Source of the DNA: Sulfolobus sp. S-194
Lineage (GTDB): Archaea; Thermoproteota; Thermoprotei_A; Sulfolobales; Sulfolobaceae
Reading direction: 5' to 3'
Length of the DNA stretch: 64,000 nt
Assembly (NCBI RefSeq): GCF_012222305.1
Contig: NZ_CP035730.1
Span: 1,887,501-1,951,500 of the forward strand
Positions 7,589 to 61,959 of this stretch are shown in pieces. A program made the translations under genes and the position numbers. Numbering within the stretch: position 1 is the stretch's first letter; every line of letters starts with the position of its first letter. The notes under the pieces are model-generated. The model was not told where the DNA came from, made no database searches, and saw nothing but the letters and a program-made list of their open reading frames with translations.

Positions 7589-8302
7589 GTGAATATTAAT
7601 AAGATTGTCGCTTTAATTACTCATTTAAATAATTTTGGGTACATAGATGAAATTGATGACCTTGATCTCCTTAATGCATTAAACTCTTTAAAACTTATTG
7701 AAACTCGTGATAAAATTTACGTAAATAAGAACTTTTATAAATATGAGTTTTTAGTCTTAGAATCAAATATAAAGGTTCGAATTATGAGAGGATATTATAG
7801 CAGAAGTGAGAAATATACTTTTTTAATTACAAAAAATGGTATAAAAGAGCTCAATTTCATTTATGATGTAACTCCAATAACTAAATTTAGGTTAATAAAA
7901 CTTAGAAGAAGCAATGAGCAAAACATAGATGCAAAAATTGAGAAAAATAATGATATAGTCAAATTTAAATTAATCTTTTCTCATCCAACTACTTTCGGTG
8001 AGCTCATAGAATTTGCTTACTACATCTACTCTAAAAAATATATACATAATAACGTGGAATACTTTTATATATTATCACCCACATTCTCTTCTTCTCTTCA
8101 TATTACTACCTCTTCTAGGATAAAATCAGTTAAAGGAATAAGATTAGTAAGAGGTCCATTCTCAGATCATTTTAAACCTCTTGATATAGAAAATTATTCT
8201 ATAGAGAAAAAAAGTGAAAATGAAATAGTTTTTAATGCAAAAAATGTAAATTATGGAATTTATGGAGTTGTGCTTGAATATGAAGAGAAAAGAACTACTT
8301 AA
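7589..8302 (+). CDS. Hypothetical protein, first of three related-looking genes
   Basis: 237 residues from a GTG start; not recognised. The first 55 residues are helical and could be a degenerate winged helix (LNNFGYIDEIDDLDLLNAL). The rest is predicted beta-rich and rich in Lys, Asn and Tyr, ending in a strand pattern (IYGVVLEY) that resembles the ends of the genes at 8280 and 9245. There is no membrane segment or signal peptide. It overlaps the next gene by 23 bases, so the two are cotranscribed. A role with that gene is inferred only from the overlap. Confidence 0.6.
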   Translation: MNINKIVALITHLNNFGYIDEIDDLDLLNALNSLKLIETRDKIYVNKNFYKYEFLVLESNIKVRIMRGYYSRSEKYTFLITKNGIKELNFIYDVTPITKFRLIKLRRSNEQNIDAKIEKNNDIVKFKLIFSHPTTFGELIEFAYYIYSKKYIHNNVEYFYILSPTFSSSLHITTSSRIKSVKGIRLVRGPFSDHFKPLDIENYSIEKKSENEIVFNAKNVNYGIYGVVLEYEEKRTT

Positions 8303-8945
8303 ATTAATAACTCATTTTAAAAACGTCGAGAATGGGATAGAAAAATTAAAACCAGAATTACAAGGAAGTAAATATTATCATGTATATGTAGAAAGGAAAG
8401 TTAGTGTTGATGAGGACGGTAATGCAAGGATAGTTAGCATTAGGGAGTTTTTACCAATCTACAGTGGTATTTCGGAAGAATATATCTCTTTTAAATATGA
8501 GGATGTTAAAGGTATATCATATAGTAAGATCAACTATATAAAAAGGGAGAATTTGTTATCTAGAGAAAAGTTAAATGCTGAGGCTGAACTTCAGCAGAGT
8601 AAAAACCAGTTATTAATCAGGATGAAATTTTTACCACCACTAAGAGTAGGAGACAAGGTAAAATTAAAATATACTGTGAGAATTAAAGGTTTTGTCTCAG
8701 ATGAAGAAAATATAGATACTGTACAAGTTGCATCTTTCACTCACTACTTTAAACTTCTCATATACCTTCCTAAGAGGCCTAAGAGAGCTGAAGTATATAA
8801 AGTGACTTTCGGAGATAATGATATTATCAGTAAGATTCCTTTAGGAGAAGATGAGGATTATAATTTTGTTGTTAATGATACTATGATAAAATTTGAAATT
8901 TATCGTATAGCATTTTCTGCTTATTCCGTTATCTGGGAGATTTAA
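8280..8945 (+). CDS. Hypothetical protein, second of three related-looking genes
   Basis: About 221 residues from ATG 8280 (an earlier in-frame ATG lies at 8253, deep inside the previous gene). A short helical N-terminus (KRKELLKLITHFKN) is followed by a beta-rich body of about 190 residues with the phrase LRVGDKVKLKYTVRIKGF and an ending IYRIAFSAYSVIWEI. The protein at 9245 has a similar pattern (IKPGETYSYKYEFYL, ending LSAIAVKFWFHF). No known domain was recognised. It is likely cytoplasmic, as it has no signal or membrane helix. Confidence 0.6.
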   Translation: MKRKELLKLITHFKNVENGIEKLKPELQGSKYYHVYVERKVSVDEDGNARIVSIREFLPIYSGISEEYISFKYEDVKGISYSKINYIKRENLLSREKLNAEAELQQSKNQLLIRMKFLPPLRVGDKVKLKYTVRIKGFVSDEENIDTVQVASFTHYFKLLIYLPKRPKRAEVYKVTFGDNDIISKIPLGEDEDYNFVVNDTMIKFEIYRIAFSAYSVIWEI

Positions 8946-10003: not shown

Positions 10004-10394
10004 TTATACACAATCTTTTTCTTTATGATGAAAATTATTAAGAGGAATAGAATATATATACTAATATCTATAATAATTTAGTTATTTTTCACGGTTCAAA
10101 CTAATTAGGCTAAAAAGTAACACATAATTCTAGTCTTCACAGCATTTTAATGAATAAGGACTTCTTTTTGAAAGATCTCGATGAACCATAGTGTCATTAT
10201 TTTCAATAATTGAGTTAATCTCTATAAAAAGAGAATGCTAAGATAAAGTTATTGTACGTCTTATTTTAACGTAGAAATATAAATAGCTTAATGACGACAC
10301 TATGCGATGAATCTTGAAAATACATACTTTTCTAATTAAGTTTATTGTATATAATAATTGATAAAGTTTTTACTAAAGTTTTTACACGTAATTT
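10004..10394. other. Intergenic region containing a MITE
   Basis: 391 bases between convergent genes. The only structure seen is the miniature inverted-repeat element at 10188-10303. The rest is AT-rich and shows no gene. Confidence 0.6.
10188..10303 (-). repeat. MITE copy 1
   Basis: A 116-bp element with terminal inverted repeats (atagtgtc... / ...gacgacactat) and the internal sequence ataaagttattgta shared with five other copies in the window. Nearly identical flanks (cgatgaac on the left, cgatgaat on the right) look like an 8-bp target duplication with one mutation. Orientation is given relative to the copies at 48780 and 61834. Confidence 0.85.
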
Positions 10395-11393
10395 TTAAGT
10401 AAGTTTCCTCATAATTACATAGACTATTATACTTATTACTATACTTACTTCTATACTCTCTACAACAAGAGGTAGTATTGGATTTATCGAAAATAAAAAG
10501 TAAAGTATAATGGCAGGCAAAAATTCTGGTAGTATTTCTATGCTTATTGTTTCAGAATGTAAACCCGGAGAAGAAGTATAAAGAAGAAACGTGACATTCA
10601 TCAAAGAGTAATGTTGTAATTTTAGGCTAGAAGAATATAGAATTATCAGAGGTAATTTTAGTAGGAAAGGATGATAATTGAAACTTAAAGTTATTGGTAC
10701 CATTGAATTAGGAGGCACAGCTCCTAAATTATTACTAAATTGTTTAGATATAAAAGGAGCGTGTTGCACAGAATTCCACATTAAAGTCGTATATATAATA
10801 TGTGGAGAAAAGAGAATCATAAATGCTGTAAATGACAAGACTAAAAATACTAAAGCCATAGATTTAGGATCAACTATTTCCATCCTATTTCTTCTTCTCG
10901 GTTTTATAACTATTTGATTTCTGTCATATATTTCACTTATACCATATATTGCAAAAAGCAATATAAAAGCTACAATATAACCTAATGTCCCTCTTATCTG
11001 AGTTATAAGATAACCTACATAAGGAATAACTATAGGATGCCCGAATATCTCTGGTACAAATCCCTTAATCCATGAGGGTTTTACTATCCAAGGATCTGGA
11101 GTAGGATTATTTATTCCCTTGGTTATATATCCGTTTTTAGTAACATTAATAACTTCATGGACAACGTAAAAATTTAAGAAAGGTGGTTTATATGCAACTA
11201 TCTCATGAGGATAAGGCTTTCCTATGAGGGGCAGAATAAAGATTAAATCCCCTGGTTTTAATAAAGGGTACATTGAGTTTGTTGCCTCAATATTCCAACC
11301 ATAGGGTAAGTGAAATATAAATTGTGAAACTACAGAAAATAATACACTAAGAAGAAAAATAGAAGCTAAAAATATTCCTATTATCTTAAACAT
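10395..11393 (-). CDS. Signal peptidase I (S26B, SEC11-type) with extra C-terminal membrane domain
   Basis: 332 residues. An N-terminal membrane helix (residues 4-25) is followed by the S26 catalytic domain: NSMYPLLKPGD holds the Ser nucleophile (about residue 40), VVHEVI has the His used in place of Lys in archaeal/SEC11 enzymes, and KGINNPTPDPW carries the conserved Asp. The second half has several more membrane segments, which is unusual for SEC11. It removes signal peptides outside the membrane. It follows the small secreted protein gene at 11515 on the same strand, an arrangement reminiscent of dedicated peptidases such as bacterial SipW with TasA. A dedicated role is inferred. Confidence 0.85.
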   Translation of the reverse strand: MFKIIGIFLASIFLLSVLFSVVSQFIFHLPYGWNIEATNSMYPLLKPGDLIFILPLIGKPYPHEIVAYKPPFLNFYVVHEVINVTKNGYITKGINNPTPDPWIVKPSWIKGFVPEIFGHPIVIPYVGYLITQIRGTLGYIVAFILLFAIYGISEIYDRNQIVIKPRRRNRMEIVDPKSMALVFLVLSFTAFMILFSPHIIYTTLMWNSVQHAPFISKQFSNNLGAVPPNSMVPITLSFNYHPFLLKLPLIILYSSSLKLQHYSLMNVTFLLYTSSPGLHSETISIEILPEFLPAIILYFLFSINPILPLVVESIEVSIVISIIVYVIMRKLT

Positions 11394-11514
11394 ATATTCT
11401 CACCTTTTATTTGATATTTTCGTTCAAGATCCGTTTATGAAGAGTATAGACATTAAAGATAAAAAACAAATGCCTTGAAACATATACTGTTTATCGAGAT
11501 CTTTTATACTGTTA

Positions 11515-12036
11515 TCATGAGGATGAGCTATAGGGTACTTCTGCAGTAACTGTCATCTGGAAGTAAGCATTACCTTGAGTATTACCAGTCATTAGCTCTA
11601 AGCTGATTGCTTGTTCTGCTCCAGCACCTAACGTGAACGTGTAGGTAGTTGATGGACCTTGAGGTGTTAGTATGTATACTTGAGTCCCTGATGGAGCACT
11701 ACTAGTAGTTATTGTTATTGTTACTTGAACTGTTTGATTTAAGTTGTTCTCTACATCAAACACATATTTTAGTATTTCTTGTGCGTTTGTGGCTACATTA
11801 CCAAAGTTTATTTGCAGATCTCCAGCACGATTATAACTTACGAATGGGTTACCGGTTGAACTGTATCCTATAGCTGAATCATTTGCTATTAAAGCTATAT
11901 TAGCAGATGCGTCTCCTACTACTGTTGCATTTACGTCTCTTGTTGCTGTGTATACGAATGTTAGTGACGCTACGAACGATATTAGTAAGATTCCCGCTAT
12001 TATTCCTACTATTAGGGCTTTAGTGGGGCTTTGCAT
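11515..12036 (-). CDS. Small secreted beta-rich protein, candidate surface-filament subunit
   Basis: 173 residues. An N-terminal hydrophobic segment (residues 8-31, LIVGIIAGILLISFVASLTF) is followed by a Thr/Ser/Ala/Asn-rich, lysine-free, beta-prone body typical of acid-stable exported proteins. It resembles the camelysin/TasA-like or DUF1102-like class in size and pattern, and its neighbour is a signal peptidase. In archaea, proteins of this kind build extracellular filaments (bundling pili of Pyrobaculum, threads of Sulfolobus). The start ATG has a ggag motif about 12 bases upstream and a TATA-like tract near 12074, so it has its own promoter. The filament role is an inference. Confidence 0.6.
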   Translation of the reverse strand: MQSPTKALIVGIIAGILLISFVASLTFVYTATRDVNATVVGDASANIALIANDSAIGYSSTGNPFVSYNRAGDLQINFGNVATNAQEILKYVFDVENNLNQTVQVTITITTSSAPSGTQVYILTPQGPSTTYTFTLGAGAEQAISLELMTGNTQGNAYFQMTVTAEVPYSSSS

Positions 12037-12231
12037 GGTTCTTCTCTAAACTCCTATATGGAATGGAGATTTTTAAATATTTCTCTTAATTAAGCTATTT
12101 TTAAAATCAAATTAAAAACAATTACATAGTCAATTTATACGAATTTATGTTTAAAAGAGGGCTTATTTCATATACTATTTATGCAAATTGTAGAGTTAGA
12201 TTAAAGTATCTATATAAAGCATATTAGTAAT

Positions 12232-12552
12232 ATGAAAGCATATTATGTGATTGCGTTAGTATTTCTTTTAACTTTAATATTCTATAACATAATATATTCT
12301 CTGAATTTTTCGTTAACTAAAAGCATTTCAATTAATGCTAACATAGTTAATGACGTTATCCGTGTTAATGGAAATTGTATCACTATAAGCAACGTCTATA
12401 ATTTACCTGTAATCGTTAATTACGGGGATTATACTCCTATAATTCTATATCCTGGTGGTTCTGCGTCTTTTCATTATCAATCTGCTTTTAATTATGTTAT
12501 TTTAAAGGCTAATGGCTTTGAGGAGATAATCGAGGTGAATGAAAATGTATAA
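12232..12552 (+). CDS. Small membrane-anchored extracellular protein
   Basis: 106 residues: an N-terminal hydrophobic segment (residues 3-24) and a beta-rich tail with the phrase IILYPGGSASFHY. It is not recognised as a named family. It is divergent from the secreted-protein gene and overlaps the next gene by a few bases, so it is part of the same surface-protein locus. A TATA-like tatataaag lies about 20 bases upstream. It may be a minor subunit or assembly partner; this is only suggested by position. Confidence 0.6.
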   Translation: MKAYYVIALVFLLTLIFYNIIYSLNFSLTKSISINANIVNDVIRVNGNCITISNVYNLPVIVNYGDYTPIILYPGGSASFHYQSAFNYVILKANGFEEIIEVNENV

Positions 12553-13846
12553 AATTAAGCTTAATAGAAATTTAAGATTAGGAAGTATTTTTCTTTTAGT
12601 TATTTTGATTGCTGCAGCATCGTATTTTAATTATAGTAATAGCATTCCACACACTGTTTTAGCTGGTTATCAACTTAAAAGTGAAATGAGTATTGCAACC
12701 CAAGGTTTTTTACATTCTTATCCGATAGGTGAAAGTAAGCTTTTAGGCTATGCTAACGTTTCTAAATCTGTTACTTACTTAGGTCTTTCCACTTATGCTT
12801 ATGTAAAGAGTTCTATTTTATATAATAACGCTACTGTGGTTTATAATCAGACTTATTATTTCTTAAAATTAACTAAAATGCTTTTTCTAAAGTTTAACGT
12901 GTCTAATATTAGTTATAAAGTGTATATAACGACACCTTATTATAATGTGTTAGTTATTCAGAATCTATCAAATAATGGAGTAATACCGCTTAATCTAACA
13001 AGGCTTTTTAACTTATATAATATCTTGGAAAACGAGTCTGGTGTATATGTGCAACCCACTTTTAATGTTGTGATAAATGATTCGGCAAGCGTTAATTTAA
13101 ATTTAAACGGAAATGTTATTTCTGTTCAATTTACTAAGAATATTATTATAAAAACCGTAAAAATACCAGTTTACGGCAAATTAGTTAGCTTAGGCGAGTA
13201 TCCTTTATCTCAGCTTATTACCCTTTATTTATATCCAACTTTCTATCCTAAACCATTATCTATAAATTACTCATTAATATTACAAATTGACGATTTTAAT
13301 TTTACCATAGAACAAAGTAAGTATAGCAGCCCTATTATGTTAAATATCACAAAATTGTATTTTATTGCTTCAAATTTTACGTCAATTTATAACTTAACTC
13401 CTGTTACACCTATAATTTATTTAAATTTTACTGCGAAATATAGTAACTTTACCTTTAAACCTTATATTGAAATAGTAGATAATAATGGTATGATTCAAGT
13501 TCTAGAATATAATAATTCAATAATTTACCCTGTTTATGAAACAACTGATAGTGACTTTAACTACTTTAACTTAATTTACATTTTATTGCCGCTGACAGTA
13601 CTAGTATACTTAATACTATTTACTCAAGGAATATCTCCATCTTCTCTAGATATTATTATGAAGAAATATAAGAAAGTAATAATAAAAGTTAATGATCCGC
13701 CTCCGCCAGAAAAGAAAATAATAAAGGTTAACAATTTTAGTGAATTGCTTAAATTATCGCAGATTTTAGCTAAACCTATTATGGCAAATGGGAATAAGTT
13801 ATGGATATATGACGAGAATTTAGCCTATATGTATGAGTTATCTTAA
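12545..13846 (+). CDS. DUF5305-like membrane protein with large extracellular domain
   Basis: About 433 residues. One membrane helix near residues 15-30, an extracellular beta-rich region of about 320 residues with many N-glycosylation sites (NxS/T), a second membrane helix near residue 350 (IYILLPLTVLVYLILFTQG), and a cytoplasmic tail of about 70 residues with PPPPEKK. This plan matches the DUF5305 family, which often sits near signal peptidase genes. A gaggtga motif fits the ATG at 12545 better than the ATG at 12539. It may anchor or assemble the product of the 11515 gene. Confidence 0.6.
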   Translation: MYKIKLNRNLRLGSIFLLVILIAAASYFNYSNSIPHTVLAGYQLKSEMSIATQGFLHSYPIGESKLLGYANVSKSVTYLGLSTYAYVKSSILYNNATVVYNQTYYFLKLTKMLFLKFNVSNISYKVYITTPYYNVLVIQNLSNNGVIPLNLTRLFNLYNILENESGVYVQPTFNVVINDSASVNLNLNGNVISVQFTKNIIIKTVKIPVYGKLVSLGEYPLSQLITLYLYPTFYPKPLSINYSLILQIDDFNFTIEQSKYSSPIMLNITKLYFIASNFTSIYNLTPVTPIIYLNFTAKYSNFTFKPYIEIVDNNGMIQVLEYNNSIIYPVYETTDSDFNYFNLIYILLPLTVLVYLILFTQGISPSSLDIIMKKYKKVIIKVNDPPPPEKKIIKVNNFSELLKLSQILAKPIMANGNKLWIYDENLAYMYELS

Positions 13847-14642: not shown

Positions 14643-15005
14643 ATGCGAATTAGTTTTAACAAAAGAAAAAGAACAGAGTATCAAATTATGTTTCAAATTT
14701 TAGACGCTCTCTCAAAGGGTCCCTTACCAAAGACTAAATTGATGTATAAGGCTGACCTTACTTACGTTGTTTCGGAAAAGTATCTCCCGTATCTTCAGAA
14801 TATAGGCGCCATAAAAAAGGATAAAGAGTTATACTATATAACAGAAAAGGGTTATGAAATTCGCAATTTGCTAGAAACATATATAAGAAAGGCGGAAGAA
14901 ATAAAGAAAGTTTTAGAAGAGCTTAAACGTACGATTAAGATGAAAAGCGGAGATGAAGGTGTTAAGATCAAGAAAGAAAATAAAGTGATAAAAAGTGATA
15001 GATGA
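14643..15005 (+). CDS. Winged-helix protein, first copy of a duplicated module
   Basis: 120 residues. Residues 1-75 form a winged helix: KRKRTEYQIMFQILDAL, a glycine-proline turn (KGPLPKTKLMYKADL), a recognition helix region and a wing ending YYITEKGYEI. A charged helix of about 40 residues follows. It is clearly paralogous to the protein at 16418 (shared FNK-KRT-Y, KGPLPKT/DGPIPKT, YLPYL/YIPYL, ITEKG). It overlaps the next gene by 11 bases. Proteins of this shape in Sulfolobales are small regulators; the target is unknown. Confidence 0.75.
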   Translation: MRISFNKRKRTEYQIMFQILDALSKGPLPKTKLMYKADLTYVVSEKYLPYLQNIGAIKKDKELYYITEKGYEIRNLLETYIRKAEEIKKVLEELKRTIKMKSGDEGVKIKKENKVIKSDR

Positions 15006-15255
15006 AACTGAGATCGAAGAATTTGAAGATGTACTTAAACTCTTTAAATTTGATAAAAAAGTAGAAATTCCATTAAAAATTATAAGTGATGAAAGAAAAT
15101 TTTTTAATTTTATATTACCTAAAGATAAACTGTTTTGTATAATTAAACCAGAGGACTACAAAATTGAAGAAATAGTAAGGGAAATAAGGAAAGATACTCC
15201 TTTTTTTATATTTAATTCAGAAAAATTAAAAGATAAAATTATACTACTATTGTAA
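14995..15255 (+). CDS. Small conserved protein of the winged-helix module
   Basis: 86 residues from a GTG inside the end of the previous gene. It has an alternating helix-strand pattern and no membrane segment or Cys pair. It is strongly paralogous to the 85-residue protein at 34927 (shared phrases include KIISD-R-FFN, CII-P-DY-IE and FI-SEKLKD). Tight coupling to the winged-helix gene suggests the products work together. The family is not recognised. Confidence 0.7.
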   Translation: MIDETEIEEFEDVLKLFKFDKKVEIPLKIISDERKFFNFILPKDKLFCIIKPEDYKIEEIVREIRKDTPFFIFNSEKLKDKIILLL

Positions 15256-15751
15256 AAAAGAAATCTTAAATATATTAAATATATAAGCTATCAACATTAG
15301 CAATAGTGTCGTTATTTTCAATAACTAAGCTAATCTCTAGGAAGAGAAGATACTAAGATAAAGTTATTGTACACTTTATTTTAATGTAGAAATATAAGTA
15401 GCTCGACAACAATATTATGACATTGGTCAACTTTCAAATAACTATGCACTATCTTTAGTGGAATCTCGATCTTATAATTCATATAAATAGTTACGAAAAG
15501 ATTTAATCCTTATATTAAGATAGATTATAAGATTTTACTGGTTTAGAATAAAAATTTTATAATATTTATCGTTATCATTTAAAAATTATTTCTCGTTAGA
15601 TGTTACATAAAAATGTTATTCCTTGACTATAATAAATTTTATGATAAAATATGTTTATATAAATCCTTTACTAGAAATTTTACTTTAATCTACCATATAA
15701 TCTAACCTTATTTAAGCAATTCTTTTTTACTTAAAAATAATAACGATATTT
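15256..15751. other. Intergenic region with a decayed MITE
   Basis: About 500 bases, AT-rich. The MITE copy lies at about 15303-15418; the remainder shows no gene. Short T-rich tracts upstream of 15752 may be promoter sequence of the membrane-protein gene. Confidence 0.5.
15303..15418 (-). repeat. MITE copy 2, degenerate right end
   Basis: It matches the other copies from atagtgtcgttatt through the internal ataaagttattgta. The right terminal repeat is altered (ctcgacaacaatattat instead of atgacgacactat), so this copy is older or damaged. Confidence 0.75.
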
Positions 15752-16366
15752 ATGATTACTCTCACTTTAGCCTTTAGCACTATATTACACTTGCCGAGTA
15801 TCCTATTTCCGCTGATAATTCTAGCGTTTACTATCTTTTATGCTCTATTTCTTTTTATGACCGCTAGTGGAATGAAGAACAAAGCTAAATTGTTAAGAGA
15901 AGAAGTTAAGGGAAAGTTAGCTATTTTATTTTTAGAAAAAAGTGTTAACTTTCTTACTGAGAGTGAATTTGCTGAATTAATGAGAGAAGTTTCTTTCATA
16001 ACTAACCTTAAATCTATAGATAAGGATAATCTGATTGATAATGTTTACCAAAGATCATCTAAAATTGAAGAAGAACTAAAGGACTTATTGATAAAAGCTG
16101 CTCTTGTAAATAATTTAAATAGATTAGTAATTAATTTAGAAAGATGGTCAAAAATATTAAAAATCACAAGTATTCTTTTAGGTGTTTTCATTCTTTTACT
16201 CATATTTTTTATCTTTATGTTTCCCTCTTACGCTTTGATTTTAGGATATATAACTTTAGGAATAATGTTAGGCTTTTTTGCAGCAATTATTGAGGCGTTA
16301 AAAGTTTATTCTGATAGTGATAAATACTTGAAGCTTTATGAGCATGATCCTCTTAAAGGAGAATAA
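15752..16366 (+). CDS. Membrane protein of the duplicated winged-helix module, first copy
   Basis: 204 residues: one N-terminal hydrophobic segment (residues 10-40), a cytoplasmic helical region of about 100 residues with the phrases LTESEFAELMREVSF and TNLKSIDKDNL, then two C-terminal membrane helices (near 143-160 and 165-188). The paralogue at 16769 keeps the same plan and the SEFAELMEEVSFLTNL phrase. The conserved motif is soluble and acidic, so it may contact a partner such as the neighbouring winged-helix protein. The family is unrecognised. Confidence 0.7.
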   Translation: MITLTLAFSTILHLPSILFPLIILAFTIFYALFLFMTASGMKNKAKLLREEVKGKLAILFLEKSVNFLTESEFAELMREVSFITNLKSIDKDNLIDNVYQRSSKIEEELKDLLIKAALVNNLNRLVINLERWSKILKITSILLGVFILLLIFFIFMFPSYALILGYITLGIMLGFFAAIIEALKVYSDSDKYLKLYEHDPLKGE

Positions 16367-16417
16367 ATGTTGATATTTAGAGTAAAATATTTTAAGTTGT
16401 AAGATAGACTATCTAAT

Positions 16418-16732
16418 ATGAAAGTTAAATTTAATAAGAAAAAAAGAACCGATTATGAAATTATTTACGACATACTTAATGCGCTTAAGGATGGTCCAAT
16501 ACCAAAGACTAGATTAATATATAGAGCTGGATTGACATATTTAACAGCTACAAGATACATTCCATATCTAGAAAAACAAAATCTGATAAAGAAGGAAGGG
16601 GACTTATATCATATAACTGAAAAAGGAGAAGAAGTGAGAAAACTGCTAGAGGTTTATAAGGTTAAGGCTAATGAAATAAAAGAGATTGTTAGTAAATTAG
16701 AGAAAGAAATAGGACCGGAAGAAGAACTCTGA
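16418..16732 (+). CDS. Winged-helix protein, second copy of the module
   Basis: 104 residues, paralogous to 14643 throughout its winged helix, with a shorter C-terminal helix. It starts 51 bases after the first membrane-protein gene and is followed 36 bases later by the second membrane-protein gene. The module is thus repeated as regulator plus membrane protein, although the small third partner is absent from this copy. Confidence 0.75.
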   Translation: MKVKFNKKKRTDYEIIYDILNALKDGPIPKTRLIYRAGLTYLTATRYIPYLEKQNLIKKEGDLYHITEKGEEVRKLLEVYKVKANEIKEIVSKLEKEIGPEEEL

Positions 16733-16768
16733 GAAAGTATTTAAATGGGTTAACAACATTTTTTATAA

Positions 16769-17332
16769 ATGAATTTTGTTTCTTGGCTTCTAGTTATTAT
16801 ATCCTTTGCCTATTCATCTTCGCTATGTGTAGTATCCAAAATAATGAAAAGTAAAAGTAGATTGTTAGGGACAAAAATAAAGAAATTAATAGCATTAAAA
16901 TTTATAGAAATGAGTGCGGATTTATTATCTACCAGTGAATTTGCTGAATTAATGGAGGAGGTTTCCTTTCTAACCAATTTAGAAGTAATTGATAAGGATA
17001 GTTTATTTCATGAACTTTATCAAAAATTTCCGCGTATTGAGAAGGAGTTAAAGGAAGTATTTATTAGGGTTAGTCTAGTCAATAAAATTGACTACCTTGC
17101 TAAAGACCTAGAAAGAAAAGCGTTTGTCCTAAGAATAGTCGCAGGTTTAATGTTCATCTCAGTATTAGGTTTAGTTGCGTATTTTGATTTTTGCCCTTAT
17201 ATTTCAATTTTATCTATAGTGCAATACACAACAACTGGCTTAATGATAATATTACCTTTAATAGTATTTGACTCCTTAAAAACCCTTTATCGGTCGGATA
17301 AAATAATTAGAGACTTTTTAAGGGAAAAATGA
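16769..17332 (+). CDS. Membrane protein of the duplicated winged-helix module, second copy
   Basis: 187 residues with the same plan as 15752: an N-terminal membrane segment, a helical soluble region carrying LSTSEFAELMEEVSF and TNLEVIDKDSLF, and two C-terminal membrane segments. The soluble region is the best conserved part of the pair. An upstream tttataaatg precedes the start directly. No catalytic motif is visible. It lies in the same direction as the NCS1 permease 13 bases downstream, so read-through is possible. Confidence 0.7.
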   Translation: MNFVSWLLVIISFAYSSSLCVVSKIMKSKSRLLGTKIKKLIALKFIEMSADLLSTSEFAELMEEVSFLTNLEVIDKDSLFHELYQKFPRIEKELKEVFIRVSLVNKIDYLAKDLERKAFVLRIVAGLMFISVLGLVAYFDFCPYISILSIVQYTTTGLMIILPLIVFDSLKTLYRSDKIIRDFLREK

Positions 17333-17345
17333 TTTTTAGTTTTTG

Positions 17346-18917
17346 ATGGTTGAAATAGAGAGAGCGTCGATAGTAAAATATTATAAAGATAGAGGGCAAG
17401 TAGAATTAACTAGTGTTTTCCCAGATGAGAAACTGTTATGGAACGCTGATATTCATCCAGTACCCGTGAAAGGTAGAAATTGGGGGGCCTTAACTTATTT
17501 CTGGATTTGGGTCTCAATGGCTTTCATTGTCCCTTCATGGACTTTAGCAAGTGTTGGTTTGGTTCTAGGTTTATCTGTTATTCAATCAATTTTTACAGTA
17601 TTTTTAGGGAATTTAATTGTTTTGATCCCAATGGTTATTCAATCTCACGGAGGAGCTAGATATGGTTTAGCGGAGCCACAGCTAACAAGAACTAGATGGG
17701 GTATTTACGGAGCCATTCTCCCTAGTTGGATTAGGGCTATAATAGGTGCTGGTTGGTGGGGAATTGAGAGTTATATTATTACTGAAGCAGCAACTGCAAT
17801 TTATACTATTCTAACTGGAAAAGTTAGCATTGTAGCATATACTGCAACCCACTATTCTAATTATCCATTTATATTAGCTATTGATTTCCCTACAGTATTT
17901 TGGGGAGTTTTTGCTGGAGTTATTTTAGCTCAGATTTTGGTATTTTACTTTTCTCCCATAAATAAAGGGCAGCCTGCTTTAAAATGGCTAGCAAGAATTG
18001 GTGGTCCAGTAATACTTTTAACTTACCTAGTTACGTGGATCTATTTCATGGATAGAGCGAATTGGTCTATTAACATTTTTTCTTTATCAGCTTCTTCCTC
18101 TACTTCAGTGTTATCTTTCTTAATATTCTTAAATGCGAATATTGCATTTTGGGCTACCATGGCACTTACAATGCCAGATTATACTAGGTTTGCTAAAAAT
18201 CAATTTTCTCAAACCATGGGTCAAATTCCCATGCCCCTTTTAATGCTATTTATTGCTATAATGTCTGTCATGACAACAGCAGCATCACTAAGGCTTTATG
18301 GAGAACCTATTTGGGATCCAATAATCCTAATTACACTTCATACAAGTTTTGCTATCCCATTACTTTTAGGAATAATTTTAGGAACTTTTCTTGTTAATGT
18401 TTACGCTAATGCTGTTGGTCCAGCTTACGACTTTGCTAATACCTTTCCTAAATATTTATCATGGTTTAGAGGATCTTTGATTTTAATAATAGTAGGCTTA
18501 GTGATAGGTGCATGGAGCTATTATGGTAATGCTTATAGTTACATACAAAACTGGTTATTAACTTATGGCGGTCTTTTAGGGAGTATTGAGGGTATAATTA
18601 TATTTGATTATGCAGTAATTAGAAGATTTAAGATTGACCTACCAGATGTGTTTTTAAGTAGAGGGAGATATAGATATTGGAAGGGAATTAATCCAGCTGC
18701 ATTAATAACTTTCATACTTATATCGTTGTTACTCTATCTTCAATATCCAGGTGAGAATATAATGTTAGATAACTCGTGGATTTTATCGTTCCTATTATCT
18801 GGGGCAATTTATGTTCCTCTAATGATATTTTGGGTTATTCCAAAATATCAACCATTCCTAAAAGGTTCTTTAAGAGAAGGATATATTTCAGAAGAATCTA
18901 GGAAAATCTTTAGTTAA
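17346..18917 (+). CDS. NCS1 family nucleobase/hydantoin/allantoin transporter
   Basis: 523 residues and about twelve membrane segments. The N-terminal region with WNADIHPVPVKGRNWGALTYFWIW and the later GARYGLAEPQLTRTRWG and ANAVGPAYDFANTFPKYLS are typical of NCS1 cation symporters for purines, pyrimidines, allantoin or hydantoins. The ATG at 17346 follows an in-frame TTG; ATG is the likely start. No purine or pyrimidine catabolic genes lie beside it, so the substrate is open. Confidence 0.88.
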   Translation: MVEIERASIVKYYKDRGQVELTSVFPDEKLLWNADIHPVPVKGRNWGALTYFWIWVSMAFIVPSWTLASVGLVLGLSVIQSIFTVFLGNLIVLIPMVIQSHGGARYGLAEPQLTRTRWGIYGAILPSWIRAIIGAGWWGIESYIITEAATAIYTILTGKVSIVAYTATHYSNYPFILAIDFPTVFWGVFAGVILAQILVFYFSPINKGQPALKWLARIGGPVILLTYLVTWIYFMDRANWSINIFSLSASSSTSVLSFLIFLNANIAFWATMALTMPDYTRFAKNQFSQTMGQIPMPLLMLFIAIMSVMTTAASLRLYGEPIWDPIILITLHTSFAIPLLLGIILGTFLVNVYANAVGPAYDFANTFPKYLSWFRGSLILIIVGLVIGAWSYYGNAYSYIQNWLLTYGGLLGSIEGIIIFDYAVIRRFKIDLPDVFLSRGRYRYWKGINPAALITFILISLLLYLQYPGENIMLDNSWILSFLLSGAIYVPLMIFWVIPKYQPFLKGSLREGYISEESRKIFS

Positions 18918-34926: not shown

Positions 34927-35184
34927 ATGGTTGAATTAGTAGATGTTAATGATGTAGAATCGCTTATGAAATTCTTTAATTTCTCTAAAAAGCTTATAAT
35001 TCCTATTAAAATCATTTCGGATAGAGAGAAGTTCTTTAATTATGTTCTTCCTAGGCAGGAGGCATTTTGCATTATAAGACCTAAGGATTACGAAATAGAG
35101 AGTGTGATTAAAGAGATAAGAAAAAATCCATTTTATATATTTATTTCTGAAAAGCTTAAGGACGAGTTAATATTACTTTACTGA
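34927..35184 (+). CDS. Paralogue of the small winged-helix-module partner
   Basis: 85 residues, strongly similar along its whole length to the protein at 14995 (about half of residues shared by eye, with KIISD-R-FFN, CII-P-DY-IE and SEKLKD). Here it stands alone, without a winged-helix or membrane partner, beside a dead TnpB element. It may be a stray copy of the module. Family unrecognised. Confidence 0.65.
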   Translation: MVELVDVNDVESLMKFFNFSKKLIIPIKIISDREKFFNYVLPRQEAFCIIRPKDYEIESVIKEIRKNPFYIFISEKLKDELILLY

Positions 35185-48779: not shown

Positions 48780-48905
48780 ATAGTGTCGTCATTAAGCTAT
48801 TTATATTTCTATATTAAAATAAGGTTTACAATAACTTTATCTTAGTATCTTCTCTTCCTAGAGATTAACTCAATTAATGAAATTATATGCAAATGACGAC
48901 ACTAT
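48780..48905 (+). repeat. MITE copy 3
   Basis: 126 bp with ends atagtgtcgtcattaagcta and its inverted form (atgacgacactat). The first 20 bases are identical to the end of the IS1-like remnant at 25596. It lies just after the TnpB-like element. Confidence 0.88.
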
Positions 48906-52107: not shown

Positions 52108-52757
52108 TAGAAGTTGATAACGCTAAAAAGTATTAAAGTTTATTTCCGAACAATTCCGCCCCTTCTCCTCTTGAGCTCTTATCCTTAGTTCCTAATTTGA
52201 TTTAACAAAAAAAGATCTCTAATAATTGAGCTTGTTAACGTCGTTCAAAATTCTAATCTTCTAAATCATTCTGGATAGATCTGAAAAACCTAAGCTATTA
52301 GCCTTGTATTTAATTTGAAAAATCTTTATAAAATGAGAGAGGTTTTGCGTGTCTATTTAACATAAAATTCTCAACTAGATGAAAAGACAAGGAATCTATA
52401 CTAGATATAACTAAACCATAATCTAACTAAGCAACATATTAAGATTACGAACAATTTGATCGAATAGTAATATTATATTTCCTAAGACTGTAACTCTTTT
52501 ACGTAACTTAAAGTGTCGTCATTATGTTATAAATTCATTAGCATAGTTTATCTCTAGCTAGAGATGACGCTAAGATAAAGTTATTGTATACATTGTTTTA
52601 ATATAGAAATATAAATACCATTATGACGACACTATGTACGTAACTACTCATTATTTTTAATTACTTCTAAATATTATTTTGGTCTGAGTTATGTTTATTA
52701 TATTCAACTAGCTTTCAAAATATTTTAAAAACCTCCTAAGAAGAAAATATATAAAAT
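52108..52757. other. 650-base intergenic region with a MITE
   Basis: AT-rich, with the MITE at 52509-52637. Near 52148 ccgccccttct matches, in reverse, part of the repeat at 29423 and 30612. The start region before 52758 has a TATA-like tract. No gene was recognised. Confidence 0.45.
52509..52637 (-). repeat. MITE copy 4 with perfect target duplication
   Basis: About 129 bp. It is flanked by the perfect 8-bp direct repeat acgtaact at 52501-52508 and 52638-52645, which shows that it moved by DDE-type transposition. The end repeat here is acatagtgtcgtcat. Confidence 0.9.
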
Positions 52758-58889: not shown

Positions 58890-59015
58890 ATAGTGTCGTC
58901 ATTTGTATACACTTTCATTAATGGAGTTAATCTCTCACTAGAGAAGATGCTAACATAAAGTTATTGTATACATTGTTTTAATATAGAAATATAAATAGGT
59001 TAATAACGACACTAT
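58890..59015 (-). repeat. MITE copy 5
   Basis: 126 bp, ends atagtgtcgtcattt / taataacgacactat, with the shared internal sequence ataaagttattgtatacattg. It ends two bases before the cctatatagg that starts the IS110 copy. Confidence 0.88.
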
Positions 59016-61833: not shown

Positions 61834-61959
61834 ATAGTGTCGTCATTAACCTATTTATATTTCTATATTAAAACAATGTATACAATAACTTTATCTTAGC
61901 GTTATCTCTCGCTAGAGATCAACTCAATTAATGAAATTATAACATAATGATGACACTAT
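61834..61959 (+). repeat. MITE copy 6 with extended inverted flanks
   Basis: 126 bp, ends atagtgtcgtcatta / taatgatgacactat by complement. The flanks gagagtggac (left) and gtccactctc (right) are inverted copies, so the inverted repeat extends to about 25 bp here. No direct target duplication is evident. Confidence 0.85.

Follow-up and report, generated by a model that had tools for sequence, protein, structure and literature searches.

A Sso10a-family winged-helix gene paired with a membrane-protein gene in Sulfolobaceae: a candidate two-gene membrane-linked regulator

Results

Two copies of a gene pair

The window, by which we mean the whole 64,000-nucleotide stretch that was analyzed, sits in a 2.79-Mb Sulfolobaceae chromosome. 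Between positions 14643 and 17332, five genes follow one another on the forward strand (Table 1): a winged-helix gene (wH1), a DUF4898 gene, a membrane-protein gene (MP1), a second winged-helix gene (wH2), and a second membrane-protein gene (MP2). A sequence-only reading of this DNA had described two adjacent copies of a winged-helix/membrane-protein pair, and our comparison bears this out: the ORFs lie where that reading had placed them, wH1 and wH2 are 52% identical (E 2e-37), and MP1 and MP2 share 38% identity across 176 residues (E 1e-34).

The second pair is compact, with MP2 starting 36 nt past wH2. The first is interrupted: the DUF4898 gene, which overlaps wH1 by 11 nt, and a gap of 496 nt that holds a MITE-like element separate wH1 from MP1. 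Other copies of the element have terminal inverted repeats (ATAGTGTCGTCAT/ATGACGACACTAT), and six of its genome copies fall inside the window; no match to it was found in the homologous gap of the wH1-MP1 region of L076. Downstream, the permease gene begins 10 nt past MP2 and is probably on one transcript with it. This gene order is kept in L076 and L077 and absent in L078, the arrangement being limited to part of the genus.

Table 1. Coordinates of the features discussed, in the window and at other loci.
Feature	Locus	Coordinates	Strand	Evidence and remarks
Extended SipW-like S26 signal peptidase, 332 aa	window	10395..11393	-	TIGR02228 E 6e-13, below curated cut-off; conserved type B neighbor
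Secreted DUF1102-like protein of peptidase cluster (possibly TasA/camelysin-type)	window	11515..12036	-	weak DUF1102 match, E 0.01; recurrent neighbor c17
Small one-TM protein of peptidase cluster	window	12232..12552	+	recurrent neighbor c33
DUF5305-like protein of peptidase cluster	window	12539..13846	+	PF17231 E 0.002; L088 relative E 1e-6; recurrent neighbor c24/c15
wH1, Sso10a-family winged helix, 120 aa, copy 1	window	14643..15005	+	NF053610 70.9 bits (cut-off 60); PF14947 E 3.9e-24; groups with L076 copy 1
DUF4898 protein, 86 aa, occasional companion, not regular partner	window	14995..15255	+	PF16239 E 2.9e-22
Degenerate MITE between DUF4898 gene and MP1	window	15304..15420	.	~40 genome copies
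MP1, partner membrane protein, 204 aa, copy 1	window	15752..16366	+	identity to MP2; family profile
wH2, Sso10a-family winged helix, 104 aa, copy 2	window	16418..16732	+	NF053610 78.8 bits; PDB 1r7j E 3e-12
MP2, partner membrane protein, 187 aa, copy 2	window	16769..17332	+	hydropathy, charge distribution, conservation, all-helical model
NCS1-type nucleobase/allantoin permease	window	17343..18917	+	PF02133 E 2e-63
Further MITE copies	window	about 10188-10288, 48795-48882, 52550-52614, 58913-58998, 61851-61936
Peptidase/secreted-protein cluster	window	10395-13846
Peptidase/secreted-protein cluster	L137	5258-7679
Convergent winged-helix gene by type A MP	L139	6852-7175
Convergent winged-helix gene by type A MP	L141	8197-8529
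Convergent winged-helix gene by type A MP	L072	14154-14477
ArnR/ArnR1 genes	L134	4087-4896, 11943-12752
ArnR/ArnR1 gene	L135	12496-13305
ArnR/ArnR1 gene	L136	4628-5482

The winged helix belongs to the Sso10a family

Both winged helices score above the curated NCBIfam cut-off for Sso10a (Table 1). The solved structures nearest to wH2 are Sso10a (chain 1r7j) and Sso10a-2 (chain 4hw0), and the alignment to 1r7j extends over the C-terminal helix, the winged helix itself being recognized by PF14947. By these matches, wH is a divergent branch of the described Sso10a family and not a new family. The suggestion that the module had not been described before thus stands for the membrane protein, which falls in no family searched, but not for the winged helix.

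Sso10a-family genes occur in 31 of 31 Sulfolobaceae genomes. In the tree, the paired winged helices lie outside the Sso10a1 and Sso10a2 clades; Sso10a1 (L198, which matches 1r7j) and Sso10a2 (L209, which matches 4hw0) are unpaired members of other clades, and the family search found no MP neighbor for the Sso10a1/Sso10a2 proteins (L197-L202, L209). Those two proteins bend, bridge or stiffen DNA (PMC4941522). The same paper, the main one on Sso10a, mentions neither an operon nor a membrane partner, and the AbfR1 paper names Sso10a solely as a chromatin protein.

A sister family within the order carries Sso10a-type domains joined to an additional soluble domain of ~120-130 residues (L213 and L217; possibly L215, L221 and L224). 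We examined the loci around Sso10a genes there and found no MP, and an Sso10a-MP pairing outside Sulfolobaceae was rejected on this ground.

The partner is a membrane protein with a conserved soluble motif

Neither MP1 nor MP2 matched anything above threshold in Pfam, NCBIfam or PHROGs, and MP1 had no significant match among PDB sequences, which places MP, as far as sequence comparison goes, outside every family searched. By hydropathy, MP has a single N-terminal membrane helix and a hairpin close to its C terminus, so that MP2 reads as TM1, a helical part with the SEFAELM-EVSF motif, a TM2-TM3 hairpin, and a basic tail (three predicted membrane helices). Basic residues follow TM1, precede TM2 and populate the tail, with few in the TM2-TM3 loop; because basic charges flank the middle and fill the tail, both are probably cytosolic.

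Conservation within the family is greatest at residues 41-70 of MP2, around S-SE--ELLEE, where mean conservation reaches 0.54, compared with 0.24-0.42 in the membrane-helix blocks. The soluble motif is indeed the best-kept part of the protein, as the sequence-only reading had remarked. Structure prediction gave a model made up entirely of helices (H2-55, H57-70, H76-141, H148-186), of moderate confidence (pLDDT 77, pTM 0.56); in it two long helices enclose the short motif helix, and there is a break at the motif. A Foldseek comparison of this model with the PDB returned generic helical matches alone (E above 0.3) and was uninformative. From these patterns we infer both the topology of MP and its likely contact site, the motif.

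The first MP profile, built from two sequences, matched in 12 of 22 sampled Sulfolobaceae; widened with the relatives found, it matched in 28 of 31 Sulfolobaceae genomes, with 0 to 4 copies per genome. Beyond the family, 4 of 166 other genomes of the order and 5 of the 300 genomes of a phylum sample gave matches, all of them partial and with E above 1e-4. Judged by these profiles, MP is found nowhere convincingly outside Sulfolobaceae. No relatives of MP were found on plasmids, phages or viral contigs, which gives no support to a mobile or defence module.

Two classes of membrane protein in different neighborhoods

The MPs fall into two classes: type A lies beside mevalonate-pathway genes, and type B, which includes both window copies, lies near an extended SipW-like signal peptidase. 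Type A adjoins a GHMP-kinase gene and a diphosphomevalonate-decarboxylase-like gene, and in many cases a 200-aa gene (c22) that gives a weak winged-helix-type match comes before it. Type A occupies one syntenic chromosomal site in most genera and follows vertical descent. At several genera's loci a second winged-helix gene (c6) converges on the type A MP, in some cases overlapping its end (Table 1).

Saccharolobus and Sulfurisphaera are the genus names that we take to apply to genomes in this set. In Saccharolobus, the type A winged helix and MP lie one on each side of the two mevalonate genes and MP is encoded on the opposite strand, a separation produced by what looks like an inversion of that block. 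Both genes persist in four of six Saccharolobus genomes; in the other two the winged helix remains and a type A MP was not found.

Type B MPs are mostly near the extended peptidase, a DUF5305-like protein, and small secreted proteins, one group of which has a weak DUF1102 match. This cluster is seen in the window and at L137 (Table 1), as well as at other type B loci; L137, a locus of what we take to be S. acidocaldarius, holds that genome's one intact type B pair, at 7885-8777. The extended peptidase is present once per genome in 17 of 31 Sulfolobaceae, 15 of these 17 copies have an MP no more than 8 kb away, and its serine, histidine and aspartate positions (SM-P, H and D) are invariant or nearly so. 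A short peptidase of ~140 residues, presumably the housekeeping one, is located elsewhere. The cluster could make an undescribed surface filament of the TasA/thread-like kind. Since the neighbors of type A and type B are unrelated, no single regulon is indicated.

Pairing, parallel divergence and duplication

To quantify the association between the two genes, we counted the Sso10a genes around 51 MPs. In 31 cases an Sso10a gene lies directly upstream, on the same strand and within 250 bp; another four MPs have one within 1 kb in some other arrangement and ten more within 8 kb, making 45 with an Sso10a gene within 8 kb and six without. The 20 MPs that lack a winged helix in the directly upstream position are mostly type B. 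Assuming ten Sso10a genes in 2.4 Mb, the chance expectation for upstream pairing is ~0.05% per gene (about one in two thousand), and the binomial P of 1e-88 is overstated, because the genomes are related and the counts are not independent events. Pairs are present in at least seven genera and the two classes are found at different chromosomal sites, so the association is not one inherited accident. The two ORFs commonly touch or overlap, with several overlaps of 1 nt and most gaps under 70 nt. At many type A loci a TATA-like sequence stands shortly before the winged-helix start; inspection by eye of the winged-helix and neighbor promoters showed TATA-like elements alone and no common operator motif. 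The co-occurrence and adjacency of winged helix and MP across Sulfolobaceae thus strongly support the module that had been proposed: the two are not rare companions, and the membrane protein falls in none of the families searched.

The two proteins diverge in parallel. In a Mantel comparison of winged-helix and MP distances over 30 intact pairs, the correlation was 0.64 overall, 0.74 within type A and 0.78 within type B (0 of 5000 permutations in each case), part of which is explained by shared species history. The MP tree splits type A from type B (support 93/93), and the type A winged helices form one group (100/96), while the type B winged helices form two or three groups among solo Sso10a proteins, one branch also including two solo proteins (L205 and L208).

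The two window copies part at one and the same node in the winged-helix and MP trees. Both trees put the window's first copy beside the first copy of L076 and its second copy beside the second copies of L076 and L077; therefore the pair was duplicated as a unit in this genus. L076 retains a stub of the MP1 end just before wH2, and similar sequence visible in L077 suggests that copy 1 was formerly present ahead of wH2 there as well.

DUF4898 is an occasional companion

The 86-residue protein that overlaps wH1 is a clear member of Pfam DUF4898 (PF16239), scoring 79.0 bits against a cut-off of 25 bits. Its paralogue at 34927, already pointed out by the sequence-only reading together with the overlap, scores 55.7 bits and is 54% identical (E 1e-26). 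The family is present in 17 of 22 sampled Sulfolobaceae genomes, with up to six copies in each, but its contexts are many and varied: 40 of 46 copies lie at a distance from winged helix and MP alike, and 5 of 46 are within 1 kb of an Sso10a gene, where ~0.4 would be expected. On these counts we rejected DUF4898 as a regular third partner and class it as an occasional companion of Sso10a genes.

DUF4898 is predicted to adopt a small alpha/beta fold (pLDDT 86), for which comparison with PDB folds gave no close solved relative and nothing informative. It has a weak relative in the filamentous Sulfolobus virus SIFV2 (E 0.06) and a PHROG match (E 2e-5), and it was not mentioned in the literature searched. 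Among DUF4898 neighborhoods, a recurrent arrangement consists of two opposite-strand DUF4898 genes, 2-3 kb apart, flanking an 11-TM membrane protein (c6 of these neighborhoods; L089, L090, L068 and L069).

Discussion

It is instructive to compare the pair with known regulators that link DNA to the membrane. In the bacterial HAAS-PadR dyad, a stand-alone winged-helix gene is coupled to one for a membrane protein whose cytosolic signaling part is alpha-helical (PMC11237479). The two-gene logic is the same, but MP differs in having a membrane helix ahead of its helical part, and we found no relation in sequence: at E 0.1 the Pfam matches of the winged helix include HTH_45 and no PadR family, MP1 and MP2 have no HAAS/DUF1700 match, the GxP motif is absent from MP2, and no PDB fold matches. 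ArnR and ArnR1, membrane-bound winged-helix regulators of Sulfolobus with a C-terminal pair of membrane helices (PMC6396743), likewise link a winged-helix DNA-binding part to membrane helices, and do so in the same organisms; they are, however, single polypeptides, whereas wH and MP are two separate genes. We considered whether ArnR might be a fusion of the pair, as an over-iterated winged-helix profile pulled in ArnR/ArnR1, and rejected this: its membrane part is unrelated to MP (hhalign probability 1.2%, no homology), leaving ArnR as an analogue only. By analogy, the pair may work like the HAAS-PadR dyad and like an ArnR split in two, while being homologous to neither.

One observation concerns ArnR itself. 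Inspected by eye, the part of ArnR/ArnR1 to which a HAMP domain and a sensor have been ascribed resembles a second winged helix, with the pattern LGISKQTLKYYIE (genes in Table 1), and ArnR may hold two DNA-binding-type domains.

A DNA-binding gene followed by a membrane-protein gene, a conserved and predicted cytosolic motif, parallel divergence, duplication as a pair, and attachment to a surface-protein cluster lead us to read wH and MP as probably the two components of one membrane-linked transcriptional regulator that Sulfolobaceae alone have put to use and diversified. In the mechanism we propose, MP would be a membrane-embedded protein whose conserved helical part and basic tail face the cytosol. 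The motif helix would bind the cognate Sso10a-type winged helix, holding it at the membrane or changing its shape, and a membrane or envelope cue would alter MP, so that the winged helix is freed or re-set on nearby promoters. Type B pairs, including both window copies, would control the adjacent cluster of SipW-like peptidase and secreted proteins, and type A pairs, with mevalonate genes next to them, may sense the membrane itself. The pairing with its conservation, the paired duplication, the parallel divergence and the neighbor clusters are observed; that the two proteins touch, which cue they respond to, which promoters they act on and in which direction is what we infer here.

Since Sso10a1 and Sso10a2 shape DNA and the paired winged helices are members of the same family, these could instead be architectural, bending or bridging DNA, with MP as the anchor that tethers chromosomal DNA to the membrane and no gene-specific regulation. 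This is possible, but we regard it as unlikely: the paired proteins lie outside both of those clades, type B goes with one particular surface-protein cluster, and 0 to 4 MPs per genome fit local regulators better than a tether. It is likewise possible, though distinctly improbable, that the winged helix autoregulates an MP of some other role, such as membrane stress buffering or assistance to the signal peptidase, the two proteins never touching. The operon order of winged helix then MP behind one promoter region would suit such an arrangement, as would the position of type B MPs beside a membrane peptidase, but the most conserved part of MP is the cytosolic motif and not the membrane part, and the two proteins diverge in parallel within each class, in part through shared descent. 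Least likely, and very improbable, is the immunity-like role raised by the sequence-only reading, or a toxin-antitoxin module with MP as effector and the winged helix as regulator or antitoxin: small adjacent genes with tight or overlapping ORFs, lineages such as L187 and L188 that keep the winged helix where MP was not found, and the viral relative of DUF4898 are set against vertical descent of type A at one syntenic site in nearly all genera, the lack of MP relatives among plasmids, phages and viral contigs, and the lack of any Pfam, NCBIfam or PHROG family match above threshold.

Returning to the membrane-linked regulator, a broader picture can be offered tentatively, as one that we think less likely than not: one branch of the Sso10a "chromatin" proteins would have no chromatin role and would supply the DNA-binding halves of a two-protein membrane signaling system that arose in Sulfolobaceae and has two branches, type A watching the membrane by genes for lipid precursors (mevalonate) and type B governing the surface-protein cluster with the SipW-like peptidase, whose product may be a donor-strand filament like those of TasA or thread.

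Many small winged-helix proteins of the Sulfolobus family are filed as chromatin proteins, and a conserved pair of this kind would reassign part of the Sso10a family. Few routes by which signals pass from membrane to DNA are recognized in these archaea, ArnR being the best known; the wH-MP pair would add a second one, built from two genes and leading from membrane to promoter. Its conservation in the genetically tractable S. acidocaldarius offers a handle on an unstudied cluster of signal-peptidase and surface-protein genes.
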